Under the pieces are notes generated by a model that did no database searches, had not been told where the DNA came from, and saw only the letters and a list, made by a program, of their open reading frames with translations. From Bacillota bacterium (lineage in GTDB: Bacteria; Bacillota; Sulfobacillia; DUMF01), in NCBI GenBank assembly GCA_012840015.1, contig DUMF01000002.1, positions 1-64,000 on the forward strand: a stretch of DNA of 64,000 nucleotides, read 5' to 3'. Made by a program: the position numbers and the translations under genes. Every line of letters begins with the position of its first letter. Within the stretch, counting starts at the first letter, position 1. Positions 18,026-62,787 of this stretch are shown in pieces.

Positions 18026-18054
18026 TTGACTCTACAGATCTGATGAATTATTAT
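18026..18054 (+). promoter_or_regulatory. sigma-A-type promoter of the lysW cluster
   Basis: TTGACT-N17-TATTAT upstream of lysW. Confidence 0.6.
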
Positions 18055-18066
18055 GAGCACATCTGT
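18034..18066 (+). promoter_or_regulatory. putative operator overlapping the lysW promoter -10
   Basis: ACAGATCTG-N15-CACATCTGT, 9-bp inverted repeat with one mismatch. Confidence 0.45.
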
Positions 18067-18092
18067 ATAATTAAACAGGAGGATTGGTATAC

Positions 18093-18257
18093 ATGTTGTG
18101 CTCATGCCCCGAATGCGCAGGAAAGTGGAAAGTTGGTTCGCTTGAAAAGGGTGAGATCGTGGTATGTCCTGAGTGTGGAGTTGAGCTGGAGGTGACCAGT
18201 GTAGAGCCGCTCAGCCTCGAACTTGCACCGGAAGAAGAAGAGGACTGGGGCGAGTAA
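18093..18257 (+). CDS. lysW: LysW-type amino-group carrier protein
   Basis: 54 aa MLCSCPECAGKWKVGSLEKGEIVVCPECGVELEVTSVEPLSLELAPEEEEDWGE: zinc-ribbon plus canonical C-terminal EDWGE; SD ACAGGAGG; absent from ORF track. Confidence 0.92.
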   Translation: MLCSCPECAGKWKVGSLEKGEIVVCPECGVELEVTSVEPLSLELAPEEEEDWGE

Positions 18258-18258
18258 A

Positions 18259-19113
18259 GTGCGCCTTGCGGTAGTTCTTTCCAGGCTGCGACAGGAGGAA
18301 AGGCTGATATTTGAGGCGCTTGCGGAGCGTGGAATAGCCTGCGATCGGCTGCTGGACTCGGAAATCGTGTTTGACCTGACGAGACTCGAGAAACAGTACG
18401 ACTCAGTGCTAATAAGGTCCATTAGTCAGTTGCGCGGGCAGGTGTGCGCTAGAGTGCTCGACGCAAGCGGGACACTGACTCTCAACTCACCATCGACGAT
18501 CGCTATTTGTAACGATAAGATTCTCACCACACTGGCGCTCGTTAAGGCTGGGTTGCCATCGCCAAGGACCCTGGTGGCGCTGGATGAGTCGAGCGCTCTG
18601 GACGCGGTGTCGCGGGTCGGGTATCCGGCCGTACTGAAACCTACTACCGGGTCGTGGGGGCGCCTGCTAGCCCGTATAAACGACCGGGATGCGGCCGAAG
18701 CTGTTATTGAGCATAAGGCAAGGCTCGGGTCTTACTTGCATTCTGTGTTCTATGTCCAAGAACACATTGCCAAACCAGGTCGAGACATCAGAGTTGTGGT
18801 GGTCGGCGGGCATGCCATAGCAGCTATGTACCGCGTATCTGACCACTGGGTCACTAATGCTGCCCGCGGCGGTCGTGGTATTAACTACCCATTAAGTGGC
18901 GAAGCCGCTGCACTCGCAGAGCGGGCAGCTTTGGCGGTAGGGGGCGGGGTACTCGCGGTGGATCTGCTCGAAGCACCAGACGGGCTGCTCGTCAATGAGG
19001 TGAACGCAACCATGGAGTTCAAAGAGTGTACAGAGGCGAGCGGCGTGGATATCGCCGGTGCCCTCGTGGATTACTGGCTGGAGGTGGCTCGCAGTGGACG
19101 ATCACACCTGTAA
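18259..19113 (+). CDS. lysX: LysW ligase (LysX/ArgX, ATP-grasp)
   Basis: RimK/LysX-like ATP-grasp, YVQEHIAKPGRDIRVVVVGG, LLVNEVNATMEFK; GTG start right after lysW. Confidence 0.88.
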   Translation: MRLAVVLSRLRQEERLIFEALAERGIACDRLLDSEIVFDLTRLEKQYDSVLIRSISQLRGQVCARVLDASGTLTLNSPSTIAICNDKILTTLALVKAGLPSPRTLVALDESSALDAVSRVGYPAVLKPTTGSWGRLLARINDRDAAEAVIEHKARLGSYLHSVFYVQEHIAKPGRDIRVVVVGGHAIAAMYRVSDHWVTNAARGGRGINYPLSGEAAALAERAALAVGGGVLAVDLLEAPDGLLVNEVNATMEFKECTEASGVDIAGALVDYWLEVARSGRSHL

Positions 19114-20182
19114 CAGTGCCGCCGTGAAGCAACGCGCCAGGGTGGCTGTGGTAGGTGCCTCAGGCTATGCTGGGGGCGAACTGCTGCGACTACTGCTTCA
19201 GCACCCTTATGTAGAGGTCGCGCAAGTCACTTCGCAGCGTTTTGTAGGAAGGTACGTGCACACCGTTCATCCCAATCTTCGCAAGCGCACTCTGCTCCAG
19301 TTCGTGAGGCTCGAAGACCTAGAGCCGTGCGATATTCTGTTTACATCGCTACCACACGGTGAAAGTTCCAAAATAGCGGAGAAACTGTTCGCGTTAGCGC
19401 CGCGGGTCGTAGACCTTTCTGCAGATTACAGGCTGCGGGACCCAGAAATGTACCCAGTATGGTACGGGTGGAGCCACCCTGATTCTAAAAGACTCAGTAG
19501 TTTTGTATATGGGCTGCCGGAACTCCACCGCCTTGAGCTCCGGGGTGCGACAAAGATCAGCGGCAGTGGATGCCTGGCCACTGCGGCTATCATAGCTCTC
19601 GCTCCCCTGTTTGCAGCTGGCCTTGTGAAGACAGAGCCGGTTATCATCGAGGGAAAGTTTGGGTCCTCTGCTGGTGGAGCCGAGCCTTCCCCGGCCTCCC
19701 ATCACCCTGAGAGGACATCCGTCATCAGGACATACGAACCGGTGGGCCACAGGCACACTGCAGAGATCGAACAGGAATTGGCACTTGTTGGGGGAGTGCG
19801 GCCGAAGGTCCATTTAACGGCTACGTCTGTTGACTCAGTACGTGGGGTGCAAACCTGTTGCCACGTGTTCCTGAAAGACCCTGCAGTTACTGAACAGGAC
19901 ATTTGGAAGGTGTACAGGGAAGCGTACTCCAGCGAACCGTTCGTGCGGCTGGTGAAGGAAAGACACGGTATACACCGTGTCCCGGATCCTAAGGTGTTGA
20001 CGGGTTCGAATTATTGCGATGTGGGGTTTGCGCGCGATCCTCATTCTGAGCGCCTGGTGGTCATTTCGGCCATCGATAATCTCATGAAGGGCGCCGCGGG
20101 CAACGCGGTGCAGGCAACTAACATCGCGATGGGGTGGCCAGAAACGGTGGCTCTGGACTTTGCAGGCTTGCACCCGTGCTAG
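19094..20182 (+). CDS. lysY: LysW-linked semialdehyde dehydrogenase (LysY, ArgC family)
   Basis: GASGYAGGELLRLL, SGSGCLATAAI active site; ArgC-like; start uncertain (GTG 19094 or 19124). Confidence 0.87.
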   Translation: MDDHTCNSAAVKQRARVAVVGASGYAGGELLRLLLQHPYVEVAQVTSQRFVGRYVHTVHPNLRKRTLLQFVRLEDLEPCDILFTSLPHGESSKIAEKLFALAPRVVDLSADYRLRDPEMYPVWYGWSHPDSKRLSSFVYGLPELHRLELRGATKISGSGCLATAAIIALAPLFAAGLVKTEPVIIEGKFGSSAGGAEPSPASHHPERTSVIRTYEPVGHRHTAEIEQELALVGGVRPKVHLTATSVDSVRGVQTCCHVFLKDPAVTEQDIWKVYREAYSSEPFVRLVKERHGIHRVPDPKVLTGSNYCDVGFARDPHSERLVVISAIDNLMKGAAGNAVQATNIAMGWPETVALDFAGLHPC

Positions 20183-20229
20183 GTCTTACGCAACTCGGGT
20201 ACGACGGTCTGCTTATTGGAGGAATTCAT

Positions 20230-21045
20230 TTGATTGTTGTTATCAAGATAGGAGGCGCCGCCGGAATTAATCAGAACTTGACCGGGCTGGCAAACGACCT
20301 GAAATCACTAGTGGACGCCGGCAATCAGATCTTACTCATTCACGGCGGTTCGGCTGAAGTGGACGCGCTTGGCGAAAGACTTGGGGTTCCTATGCGCTAT
20401 ATAACGTCTCCGTCCGGAGTGAGGAGTCGCTACACCGATAGTGCGACCATGGAAGTATTCATTATGGCCATGGCTGGCCGTGTCAATACGGAGCTTGTCC
20501 GCCAGCTTCAGGTTGTTGGAGTCAAAGCGGTAGGTATAACCGCAATAAGTGGCGGTATGTTTTATGGAGAACGGAAGACCGCTATACGTAGCGTTGAAGG
20601 ATCGAAAGTGAAGCTCATCCGCGACGATTTAAGCGCGACTCTGACGAGTGTGGACACAGCCTTAGTAGAGCACCTGCTCGCTGGAGGATATCTGCCGGTG
20701 GTGTGCCCGCTCGTGCTTGCCCAGGGCGGAGAGGTGTGTAACATCGACGCTGACAGGGCAGCGGCGGCTTTGGCAACAGCTTTGCGCGCCGACCAGCTCA
20801 TTCTGCTATCCAATGTGCCGGGTTTGCTAGAAGACGTGAGCAATCCTAGCTCGCTGATCCGCTGTATACGAGTAGGAGAGGCTGAAAGTTACGAAGAGAT
20901 AGCCAGCGCCGGGATGAAAAAGAAACTTGCCGCCGCAGTGGCGGCTGTGCGAAGCGGCGTCAAGCGAGCGGTCATAGCGGATGGGAGGGTGGAAGCCCCG
21001 GCTACTCGTGCAATCAGATCGGAAGGTACGGTGGTCACGCCATGA
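20230..21045 (+). CDS. lysZ: LysW-linked aminoadipate/glutamate kinase (LysZ, ArgB family)
   Basis: IVVIKIGGAAGINQNL, LLIHGGSAEVD; TTG start after GGAGGAATT. Confidence 0.88.
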   Translation: MIVVIKIGGAAGINQNLTGLANDLKSLVDAGNQILLIHGGSAEVDALGERLGVPMRYITSPSGVRSRYTDSATMEVFIMAMAGRVNTELVRQLQVVGVKAVGITAISGGMFYGERKTAIRSVEGSKVKLIRDDLSATLTSVDTALVEHLLAGGYLPVVCPLVLAQGGEVCNIDADRAAAALATALRADQLILLSNVPGLLEDVSNPSSLIRCIRVGEAESYEEIASAGMKKKLAAAVAAVRSGVKRAVIADGRVEAPATRAIRSEGTVVTP

Positions 21046-22244
21046 GAAAGATTGAAGACAGCATTTTCAAGGTGGAAGACGAGCACACCTCGGGCTTGTA
21101 CCATAAGAGACACCTTGCCATCACGAGGGGGGCGGGCGCGCTTGTTTGGGATGCGGAGGGCAGAGAATACATAGACTGTGACACCGGTCACGGCATTGCT
21201 GTCCTTGGACACTGCCACCCCAAAGTGGTTTCGGCTATCGTTAACCAGGCTTCCGCCTTGCTCACGTGCGGGGAATCCTTCTACTCAGAACCGCGTGCCA
21301 GGCTGCTTCAGGTCTTAACGTCGGTGCTACCGCGGGCGCTCGGTAGAATATTCCTTTGCAACTCCGGGACGGAGTCCGTGGAAGCTGCAGTGAAGTTCGC
21401 TCGGTTGGCTACAGGCAGAACCAAGATTGTTGCGTGCAAAAGGGGGTTCCACGGCCGAACGCTGGGGTCTTTGAGCGCGACATGGAATCCTGGCTACCGG
21501 GCACCGTTTGAGCCACTCGTACCTGGATTTGTGCATATTACTTTCAACGATTACGAAGAGGCCCACGACGTCATAGATACTTCCACCGCAGCCGTCATTA
21601 TAGAACCAGTGCAGGGGGAGGGAGGTGTCATTCCTGCGACCCCCGAGTTTCTTAGCTATGTGAGGGAGCTTTGCACTGAGCGCGGCGCCTTGCTGGTGTT
21701 TGACGAGGTACAGACGGGTATGGGGAGGACCGGGGCATTCACGGCCTCTCAGGAGTACGGAGTTGTACCCGACATACTTTGCCTGTCCAAAGGGCTGGGA
21801 GGCGGACTACCGATTGCTGCTGTCGCTTTCAACCCGGATCTCATCACCCTTACCCCAGGTGTCCATGCATCTACCTTCGGAGGAAATCCGGTTGCGTGCG
21901 CGGCTGCCGCCGCGGCGACCGAGGCGCTAATCGAGGAGAGGCTTCCCGAGCGGGCGAAAGAGCTCGGCGCACGCTTTATGGCACTCCTTTCGGAAGTCTT
22001 GTCGCCATGCGCAGTAGTAAGAGAGATACGCGGGAAAGGCCTCATGATAGGCATCGAGTTAAAGGCTAGGTCTGGGCGGTACTTACAGATGCTACAGGAA
22101 CGCGGCATTCTTGCTCTAGCCGCGGGCCCCACTGTCATCCGGTTACTGCCGCCTCTGGTCATCACCTGGCCGCAGCTAGAACGAGTCGCTGAAACTCTTG
22201 CGTCGGTGCTCGTTGAGGCTACCCCTGCCCTCGAGCGCGTTTGA
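21042..22244 (+). CDS. lysJ: LysW-linked aminotransferase (LysJ/ArgD family)
   Basis: Class III PLP aminotransferase: NSGTESVEAAVKFAR, FDEVQTGMGRTG, LSKGLGGGLPIAA. Confidence 0.87.
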   Translation: MRKIEDSIFKVEDEHTSGLYHKRHLAITRGAGALVWDAEGREYIDCDTGHGIAVLGHCHPKVVSAIVNQASALLTCGESFYSEPRARLLQVLTSVLPRALGRIFLCNSGTESVEAAVKFARLATGRTKIVACKRGFHGRTLGSLSATWNPGYRAPFEPLVPGFVHITFNDYEEAHDVIDTSTAAVIIEPVQGEGGVIPATPEFLSYVRELCTERGALLVFDEVQTGMGRTGAFTASQEYGVVPDILCLSKGLGGGLPIAAVAFNPDLITLTPGVHASTFGGNPVACAAAAAATEALIEERLPERAKELGARFMALLSEVLSPCAVVREIRGKGLMIGIELKARSGRYLQMLQERGILALAAGPTVIRLLPPLVITWPQLERVAETLASVLVEATPALERV

Positions 22245-23365
22245 GGGGACCGAGAATGCTAAGCTTTCCGCGTATGGATGATGAAGTCAAGCTGCTGTAC
22301 GACCTCGTCGAGCAGCCTAGTTTCTCGGGTGAGGAAGCCAAAGTATCAGGTCTGTTGGTGCGTATTCTTACTAAATACGGCTGGAGTGTGCGTTCCGACT
22401 CCGTTGGCAATGTGATTGCTGAGAAAGGTCAATCCGGCCCGTTGCTCCTTTTTCTGGGTCATATCGATACCGTTCCTGGATGGCTCGGCGTGAAGGTTGA
22501 AAATGGAGAACTTCACGGTCGTGGTTCCGTGGATGCAAAGGGCCCGCTTGCTGCGTTCGTGGCGGGTGTCGCGCGAGCTGAAGCAACGCTGGACGGGCGG
22601 CACGAGAGCCGGGGCTTGCCTGCACGCATAGTGCTTGTGGGCGCGGTGGGGGAAGAGCAAGACTCACGCGGCGCGAAGGCAATTGTAAACACCTTCAGGC
22701 CCGATTACTGTGTGGTGGGAGAACCAAGCGGGTGGGAGGGTATTACCCTCGGGTATAAGGGCTTTGCGCGTGCCTCGGTGAGAGTGGAGTTTCCCTCGTT
22801 CCACGGATCGGGACGCTACGCCACGGCCACTGAATCTGTAGTCTCTGTCTGGAACTCAATCAGTACCAGGACGGATAACGCGAGTAGCTTTCAAAGCCTC
22901 ACCGCATCCCTCGAAAGCGTTAGCACCGAGAGAAATGGCCTCAGCGACGAGGCAAGCGCTCGGATAGTGTTCCGCTTGCCGCCGTGGGCTTCTGCCGAGG
23001 GAATTGCCTCGCTCTTGTCCGAGGCCGTTGAGCTTGCACGAGCAGGGACGAAGCCCTGGCCTGAAAACGCCAAGGTCACTGTGTGTTTGGACAACTCAGT
23101 TCCAGCCTACGTGGCACCCAAGAATAACCTTCTGATACGGTCCTTCATCTCGGCCATAAGGGAACTCGGTGGGACTCCGCGGTTTAAACGCAAGACCGGC
23201 ACGAGCGACATGAATGTGGTGGCTCCCGTTTGGAACTGTCCCATTCTAGCATACGGGCCGGGGGATTCGTCACTGGACCACACCTCGCAGGAGCGCATCT
23301 CTCTGGAGGAATATAGTCTGGCGATTGAAGTGTGGCACCGCGTCTTGACTGCCCTACCCTGGTGA
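22241..23365 (+). CDS. lysK: LysW-linked lysine/ornithine hydrolase (LysK, M20 family)
   Basis: LFLGHIDTVPGW, GRGSVDAKGPLAAF, VGEEQDSRGAK; overlaps lysJ. Confidence 0.87.
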   Translation: MRGPRMLSFPRMDDEVKLLYDLVEQPSFSGEEAKVSGLLVRILTKYGWSVRSDSVGNVIAEKGQSGPLLLFLGHIDTVPGWLGVKVENGELHGRGSVDAKGPLAAFVAGVARAEATLDGRHESRGLPARIVLVGAVGEEQDSRGAKAIVNTFRPDYCVVGEPSGWEGITLGYKGFARASVRVEFPSFHGSGRYATATESVVSVWNSISTRTDNASSFQSLTASLESVSTERNGLSDEASARIVFRLPPWASAEGIASLLSEAVELARAGTKPWPENAKVTVCLDNSVPAYVAPKNNLLIRSFISAIRELGGTPRFKRKTGTSDMNVVAPVWNCPILAYGPGDSSLDHTSQERISLEEYSLAIEVWHRVLTALPW

Positions 23366-61019: not shown

Positions 61020-61156
61020 GGCTCGTCGAACCTCCCGGGTTATTATCTCCGTTGATCGCGCGACTCAACCAGTCGTTAAAAGTTGTTGTTGACTTAGGAT
61101 TTAGTCGTGCTATGATGGAAGCAAAGTTAATACTGACTATGCCCGTCCGTTACGGG

Positions 61157-61332
61157 GTGAGTCAGAGGCGCGGTTGTTAATGGTACGCCAGTGGAGACGG
61201 AATCGATGAAGCTGGGGGAAGGAGCAACCGCCGAAGGTTCCAGGCGCCGGCCGTGGGACCTGGGTACACATCGAACAGGTGTGTAACTGTCGTGCATCGT
61301 TTCCCCTGAGCGGTGCACGGAGCGCTACTCAC
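61157..61332 (+). ncRNA. lysine riboswitch (L-box) aptamer upstream of lysA
   Basis: GTGAGTCAGAGGCGCGG...GGGGGAAGGAGCAACCGCCGAAGG...GGCCGTGG...CTACTCAC; P1 pairs GTGAG(TC)AG with CTACTCAC. Confidence 0.9.
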
Positions 61333-61368
61333 GCTTTGGGGGTGGAGGAGGGGTGCGGAAGTAACGAG

Positions 61369-61399
61369 CCGCGCGGCAACCGCCCGCGGTTTTTGGTTT
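61369..61399 (+). terminator. riboswitch-controlled intrinsic terminator before lysA
   Basis: CCGCGCGG-CAA-CCGCCCGCGG hairpin followed by TTTTTGGTTT. Confidence 0.65.
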
Positions 61400-61443
61400 A
61401 TCTAGGCCATACGGACTATAAAGGGAAAAGGAGAGGATCCCTG

Positions 61444-62787
61444 TTGGATTATGACGAACGGGGTAACTTAAGATTTGGGGGTTGTGATGTTTCGAAGCTC
61501 GCGAGTACGTATGGCACTCCGCTTCACGTACTGGACGAACAGGTTATAAGGAAAAAATGTCGCGAGTATATGGATGCTTTCTCCAGGAGTTACTCCGGTC
61601 CGGGCTATCGAGTGGCTTACGCTGGTAAGGCTTTGTGTATCAAGGCGGTGCTCGAGATAGTCAAGAGCGAAGGCCTGTATCTGGACGTATGTTCTGCGGG
61701 GGAGTTGGTTACTGCACTATCAGCTGGCTTTCCGCCTGACAAGATCTACTTCCACGGTAACAACAAGTCGACCGATGAGATACTCATGGCTTTAAAACGT
61801 GGAATTGGGAGATTCGTGGTCGATAACTGGTTCGAACTCTTGGAGCTTGGCCGGCTGAGCTCGAAGCTGAAGAAGAGGGCTAACGTATTGATAAGGGTTG
61901 CGCCGGGCGTGAGCGCCCATACGCATGAGTATATCGATACCGGTCAGTCGGACTCCAAATTCGGATTTAGCCTGATAGAAGGGGACGCTATGGCAGCGGT
62001 GAAGAGGGCCTTGCAGATGAGAAGTCTGCATGTGGCCGGCCTTCACTGTCACATCGGTTCGCAGGTGTTCAACCTGGAATCTTTCCAGCGCGCCGCGTGG
62101 AAGATGGAAACATTAAGGTGGGAAGTGAAACAGGAGACGGGCGTAGAACTATTGGAGCTCGATATGGGGGGCGGCCTAGGAGTGAAATACCTTGAGGGAG
62201 ACGACCCTCCGCCGATAGTGAGCTACGTCGAAGCTGTAGCCCATGCTGTGGAGGAGGCGGCGAGTTACTACGGCCTCCGGTATCCCGTTTTGACTTTGGA
62301 ACCGGGGAGGTCGCTGGTGGCTGAAGCGGGAATCACTGTCTATCGGGTTGGGGCAATTAAGAATCACAGGGTAGGAGAGTCCTATGTGCTCGTAGATGGC
62401 GGAATGTTCGAAAACCCCAGGCATGCTCTTTACGGAGCGCAGTATACTGTCTTGCCGGTGAGAAAGCCCATCACTCATCAGAGAAGAGTGTTTACCGTTG
62501 CGGGCAAGTGCTGCGAATCGGGCGATGTGATCACCAAGGGGTGCGAGCTGCCGCCCGTTTCAGCGGGTGACTTGCTTGCGGTAACATGTACGGGTGCATA
62601 TCATTATGCCATGGCTTCAAATTATAACCGCTTCCCGCGGCCGGCTGTGGTAATGGCATCTGGAGGCAAGTCCGCTGTCGTGGTAGAACGGGAGAGCTAC
62701 ATGGACCTGGTTAAGCGGGACAAAGTACCTGTTTGGTTGGAAGCTAAAAAGTTGGCTAAAGCTATGGGCCAGCGGCCGGGAATGTGA
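61444..62787 (+). CDS. lysA: diaminopimelate decarboxylase
   Basis: AYAGKALCIKAV, ELDMGGGLGVKY, EPGRSLVAEAG, GKCCESGDV; TTG start after GAGAGGAT. Confidence 0.95.
   Translation: MDYDERGNLRFGGCDVSKLASTYGTPLHVLDEQVIRKKCREYMDAFSRSYSGPGYRVAYAGKALCIKAVLEIVKSEGLYLDVCSAGELVTALSAGFPPDKIYFHGNNKSTDEILMALKRGIGRFVVDNWFELLELGRLSSKLKKRANVLIRVAPGVSAHTHEYIDTGQSDSKFGFSLIEGDAMAAVKRALQMRSLHVAGLHCHIGSQVFNLESFQRAAWKMETLRWEVKQETGVELLELDMGGGLGVKYLEGDDPPPIVSYVEAVAHAVEEAASYYGLRYPVLTLEPGRSLVAEAGITVYRVGAIKNHRVGESYVLVDGGMFENPRHALYGAQYTVLPVRKPITHQRRVFTVAGKCCESGDVITKGCELPPVSAGDLLAVTCTGAYHYAMASNYNRFPRPAVVMASGGKSAVVVERESYMDLVKRDKVPVWLEAKKLAKAMGQRPGM

Follow-up and report, generated by a model that had tools for sequence, protein, structure and literature searches.

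Among the closest described systems is the haloarchaeal ArgW/ArgX pathway of Natrinema gari J7-2, in which, as proposed here, a LysW-type carrier serves ornithine synthesis and lysine is made via diaminopimelate (DAP), and which like the present genome lacks a complete aminoadipate-making gene set (PMC10433800). The two differ in that N. gari is an archaeon with the specificity pair Ala-Leu instead of Glu-Cys, and in that its route was shown by mutants and an in vitro assay (PMC10433800), whereas the route described here is read from sequence. In Sulfolobus and Thermococcus the LysW pathway is bifunctional, and, as in the present case, one carrier system is able to serve ornithine synthesis. 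However, Sulfolobus has separate ArgX and LysX ligases, whereas the present genome encodes only one LysX above the profile cut-off, together with genes for lysine synthesis via DAP.

The LysW-dependent aminoadipate pathway of Thermus and Thermogemmatispora uses the same six core genes, and their order here is that of Thermogemmatispora. All five Thermogemmatispora loci compared run from lysW-X-Y-Z-J-K on into genes of homocitrate synthase (HCS), homoaconitase (LeuC, LeuD) and dehydrogenase (Iso_dh) type (one locus being typed by profile), whereas the cluster described here does not, and the Asn-Ser pair of LysX is replaced in it. The LysW-glutamate pathway of the Gemmatimonadota, bacterial like the present one, is described as LysW-dependent ornithine synthesis and is a genome-based prediction (PMC11651109). 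LysW-dependent ornithine synthesis is already known from experiments in archaea and is predicted in bacteria, for which a literature search returned no experimental proof; new are a bacterial lineage with such gene content and its unusual specificity pair.

Organization of the lysW-lysK cluster

The window, i.e., the whole stretch of 64,000 nucleotides that was analyzed, belongs to a genome of the class Sulfobacillia, which was searched as an assembly of 2.04 Mb (96% complete). A sequence-only reading had claimed a contiguous lysW-lysX-lysY-lysZ-lysJ-lysK cluster, and the six genes indeed follow each other head to tail on the plus strand at 18093-23365, each encoded protein passing at least one curated profile cut-off in a profile search:

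18026..18054, plus strand, promoter-like site TTGACT-17-TATTAT (consensus scan; four found in the region against 2.2 expected)
18064..18077, plus strand, ARG-box-like site TGTATAATTAAACA, possible ArgR operator (pattern scan)
18093..18257, plus strand, lysW/argW, carrier protein (TIGR01206, 67 bits, cut-off 53; PF21344 also above cut-off)
18259..19113, plus strand, lysX, ATP-grasp ligase (TIGR02144, 307.5 bits, cut-off 275.6)
19024..19029, plus strand, codons of Glu256-Cys257 of LysX, putative specificity pair (alignment)
19124..20182 (start approximate), plus strand, lysY, ArgC-type reductase (TIGR01850 argC, 383 bits, cut-off 234)
20230..21045 (start approximate), plus strand, lysZ, ArgB-type kinase (NF010659, 304 bits, cut-off 223)
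21042..22244, plus strand, lysJ, ArgD-type aminotransferase (TIGR00707, 430 bits, cut-off 410; narrower LysJ models score below their cut-offs)
22241..23365, plus strand, lysK, LysW hydrolase (NF003367, 375 bits, cut-off 363)

The genes overlap or sit close together, which is consistent with one operon through lysK. The start of lysW was picked by the AGGAGG preceding its ATG and that of lysX is the GTG immediately 3' of the lysW stop codon. LysW has four cysteines (zinc site) and ends in EDWGE, the C-terminal sequence that is read by the GSWGR motif present in LysX, whose relatives in the PDB are 3vpd, 1uc8, 5k2m and 3vpb. Moreover, all four of the Z, Y, J and K enzymes of LysW-dependent biosynthesis are encoded in the cluster. 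LysW-like carriers are used elsewhere for specialised metabolites, and the cluster might build such a compound on its carrier protein; this is highly improbable, as exactly the six core enzymes are present, no tailoring genes were recognised alongside and the arginine branch would otherwise be missing.

The ARG-box-like site is located just upstream of lysW, with the promoter-like site ahead of it and the lysW ribosome site behind it, and is the sole match to TGNATWWWWATNCA at no more than one mismatch in the 64 kb, with 1.13 expected and with a pattern that was loosened after the region had been inspected. An ArgR-like frame was found in the genome by a motif scan. Because of the post hoc loosening and because a 20 kb stretch containing argG gave no ARG-box match, the link to ArgR is weak, and the site and the ArgR-like protein together are no more than suggestive.

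Arginine and lysine genes in the genome

A genome-wide search for the acetylated arginine pathway, proposed along with the sequence-only reading, did not detect ArgJ in the genome, using a search that finds ArgJ in 10 of 14 controls. The amino acid kinase (AA_kinase) family has four members, i.e., LysZ, PyrH, carbamate kinase and an aspartokinase fused to homoserine kinase, so that LysZ is the only ArgB-type kinase of the genome, and neither a second one nor a kinase-containing ArgA was found there. Arginine synthesis thus has to proceed without an alternative ArgB-type kinase, and a short GNAT-only synthase could not complete the acetylated route because the kinase is missing. ArgF, ArgG and ArgH are present, all far above their cut-offs (argG and argH adjacent, argF on the same contig), so the section from ornithine to arginine is complete. 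For ornithine itself the LysW cluster would be the only source, barring import or a route outside those covered by the search. Within the class, ArgJ occurs in none of the four genomes with LysX compared to 12 of the 27 without (P ~0.12), a weak sign of mutual exclusion. As side observations, the homoserine kinase (ThrB)-aspartokinase fusion is a single frame of 710 residues (contig C14, L047:1501-3633), and a tRNA-like sequence with the anticodon loop CCTCCGGAG, read by eye, lies directly ahead of argG (L080, ~1040 to 1120).

The claim that no homoaconitase, homoisocitrate dehydrogenase, argJ or argA lies beside the cluster was confirmed in the neighborhood. Genome-wide, the single isocitrate/isopropylmalate-type dehydrogenase (Iso_dh) is leuB (498 bits), which has leuA and ilv genes as neighbors, so that the search of this 96% complete genome detected no dedicated homoisocitrate dehydrogenase. 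A LeuCD-type pair is apparently divided between two contigs, one part lying at an end of C27 and the other at an end of C14. Two homocitrate/isopropylmalate synthase-like (HMGL-like) proteins of ~409 residues are encoded on the minus strand, one near the window start (homocitrate synthase superfamily domain at 974-1756, ~16 kb from the cluster) and one at C8:12700-13920; both score below all curated cut-offs, including every homocitrate synthase cut-off, and the HCS of Thermogemmatispora itself scores just below its cut-off.

The neighbors of a second aconitase-like (LeuC/LeuD-type) pair, on contig C18, are genes for MutL, PrpF and proteins of PEP-mutase and hydroxyisobutyrate-dehydrogenase type; the pair was therefore rejected as homoaconitase, DmdAB being the better identification. 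This C18 cluster (L051:178-10434) also has SDH_alpha-like and B12-binding genes and resembles the 2-methyleneglutarate part of nicotinate fermentation.

Synthesis of lysine only, as in Thermus, with the DAP genes serving the cell wall and arginine being imported or made otherwise, would agree with the profile models, which name the genes LysX, LysZ and LysK, and with a LysX whose active-site region is still mostly of the AAA type. However, the lack of a dedicated homoisocitrate dehydrogenase among the genes found, the absence of upper-pathway genes beside the cluster and the retention of ArgF, ArgG and ArgH with no other ornithine route found make this quite improbable.

On the lysine side, lysA follows a lysine riboswitch, as the sequence-only reading had it:

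61154..61335, plus strand, lysine riboswitch (RF00168, 87 bits, E 2e-21)
61279..62787, plus strand, lysA frame (TIGR01048, 452 bits, matched residues 59-481)

Since the match covers residues 59-481 only, lysA probably starts further downstream than listed; the listed start overlaps the riboswitch. In the genome, LysC, DapF, DapL and LysA are present, together with three DapA-like proteins, two of which pass TIGR00674 narrowly and one of which does not, and an Asd beside the leu/ilv genes that was recognised from its N-terminal sequence only. Together they indicate a DAP route of the aminotransferase type. The suggested search for dap genes thus gave DapA-like proteins and DapF but no DapB, for which PF01113 gave no match in the window genome and a motif scan covered ~1.2 Mb of it, overlaps included. 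Similarly, the DapB profile had no match in G029, only a sub-threshold match in G027 and weak matches in G004, the best of which looks like an aspartate dehydrogenase. The four LysX-bearing genomes of the class (the window genome G000, G004, G027 and G029) therewith share the lack of a convincing DapB, and all of them have DapF. Possibly a different reductase takes the place of DapB in these genomes; a PMC literature search on DAP pathways without DapB returned nothing.

The missing DapB match, along with the LeuCD-type pair and the two extra HMGL-like synthases, would fit a bifunctional cluster as in Thermococcus, which makes ornithine and lysine with aminoadipate supplied by promiscuous leucine-type enzymes. 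However, there is no second Iso_dh in the genome, the extra synthases stay below the cut-offs mentioned and lysA with its lysine riboswitch, DapL and DapF are present, rendering dual use of the cluster unlikely.

The putative specificity pair of LysX

It is reported that replacing Asn-Thr of SaLysX by the Gly-Phe of SaArgX shifts the preference toward glutamate, that the signature pair of Natrinema ArgX is Ala-Leu and that motif swaps failed to shift the specificity of Natrinema ArgX (PMC10433800). In an alignment of the window LysX with 43 other rows, the published pairs (Asn-Thr, Gly-Phe, Ala-Leu) can be matched only to the two positions that follow EFK, and these columns are for this reason taken to be the published LysX/ArgX specificity switch (PMC10433800); ATMEF as specificity motif was dropped on the same grounds. 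The two columns hold Asn-Ser in 34 of the 44 rows, Asn-Ala in Thermococcus LysX and Gly-Phe in Sulfolobus tokodaii ArgX. The window LysX has Glu-Cys, which matches neither the LysX pair nor the known ArgX pairs (Gly-Phe, Ala-Leu), and the LysX of G027, 73% identical, has Thr-Cys. The remaining active-site region of the window LysX is LysX-like (HWVTN-ARGG, TMEF).

The nearest relatives compared share only the class with the window genome. G027, the nearest of them, has the same six genes, encoding proteins 49-73% identical to those of the window. Its one Iso_dh shares a contig with its LeuA, no ArgJ was found in it and no HCS-, LeuC-, LeuD- or Iso_dh-type genes lie beside its six-gene cluster. 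G029 LysX retains Asn-Ser, but no Iso_dh match was found in G029, so residue pair and gene content disagree in places. The LysX/ArgX phylogeny that had been called for groups the window with G027 (95/100) among bacterial LysX and gives no secure placement with ArgX, in a tree with several long branches and unreliable deep forks. It is conceivable, with the balance tipping slightly against it, that a bacterial LysX lineage moved independently from aminoadipate to glutamate, with Glu-Cys or Thr-Cys taking the place of Asn-Ser at what would be the position of Gly-Phe or Ala-Leu in archaeal ArgX.

Proposed pathway and related loci

As the sequence-only reading had proposed, the cluster probably serves LysW-dependent synthesis of ornithine from glutamate for arginine, with lysine made separately via DAP. 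The gene content of this pathway, observed genome-wide, supports the proposal; its substrate specificity and every one of its reactions are predicted from sequence. LysX would ligate glutamate to LysW, at the C-terminal glutamate of the carrier, and the bound intermediate would be phosphorylated by LysZ, reduced by LysY and transaminated by LysJ, before LysK would free ornithine from LysW and ArgF, ArgG and ArgH would convert it to arginine. Lysine would be formed through DapL, DapF and the riboswitch-controlled LysA. Besides the gene content of the window genome and of G027, the departure of both LysX proteins from Asn-Ser and the ARG-box-like site with the ArgR-like frame count in favor of the ornithine reading. 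The fit of LysX to the LysX equivalog model, its position among bacterial LysX, its otherwise LysX-like active-site region, the failure to find DapB in the genome, the non-canonical Glu-Cys pair, the motif swaps without effect in Natrinema and the disagreement seen in G029 speak against the ornithine reading.

If true, LysW-dependent arginine synthesis would reach from archaea to a bacterial class and would account for genomes that resemble arginine auxotrophs. Annotation pipelines that label such genes as lysine genes could then assign the wrong pathway. Moreover, the Glu-Cys/Thr-Cys pair would offer a direct test of substrate change in the LysX/ArgX enzyme family.

The genes named lysW and lysX in a riboswitch survey encode transporters and are unrelated to the cluster genes (PMC5584792). 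In Ruegeria (L032:9819-12742), lysW-X-Y-Z-K occurs with no aminoadipate-type genes nearby, and LysX reads TEFALA compared to MEFRNS in others. A Wirthbacteria locus (L025:2460-13177) has three LysX-like copies, whose pairs are Asn-Ser, Gly-Leu and Gln-Phe, and adjoins HCS-, LeuCD- and Iso_dh-type genes; it might represent a bacterial LysX/ArgX pair resembling the two-ligase arrangement of Sulfolobus.
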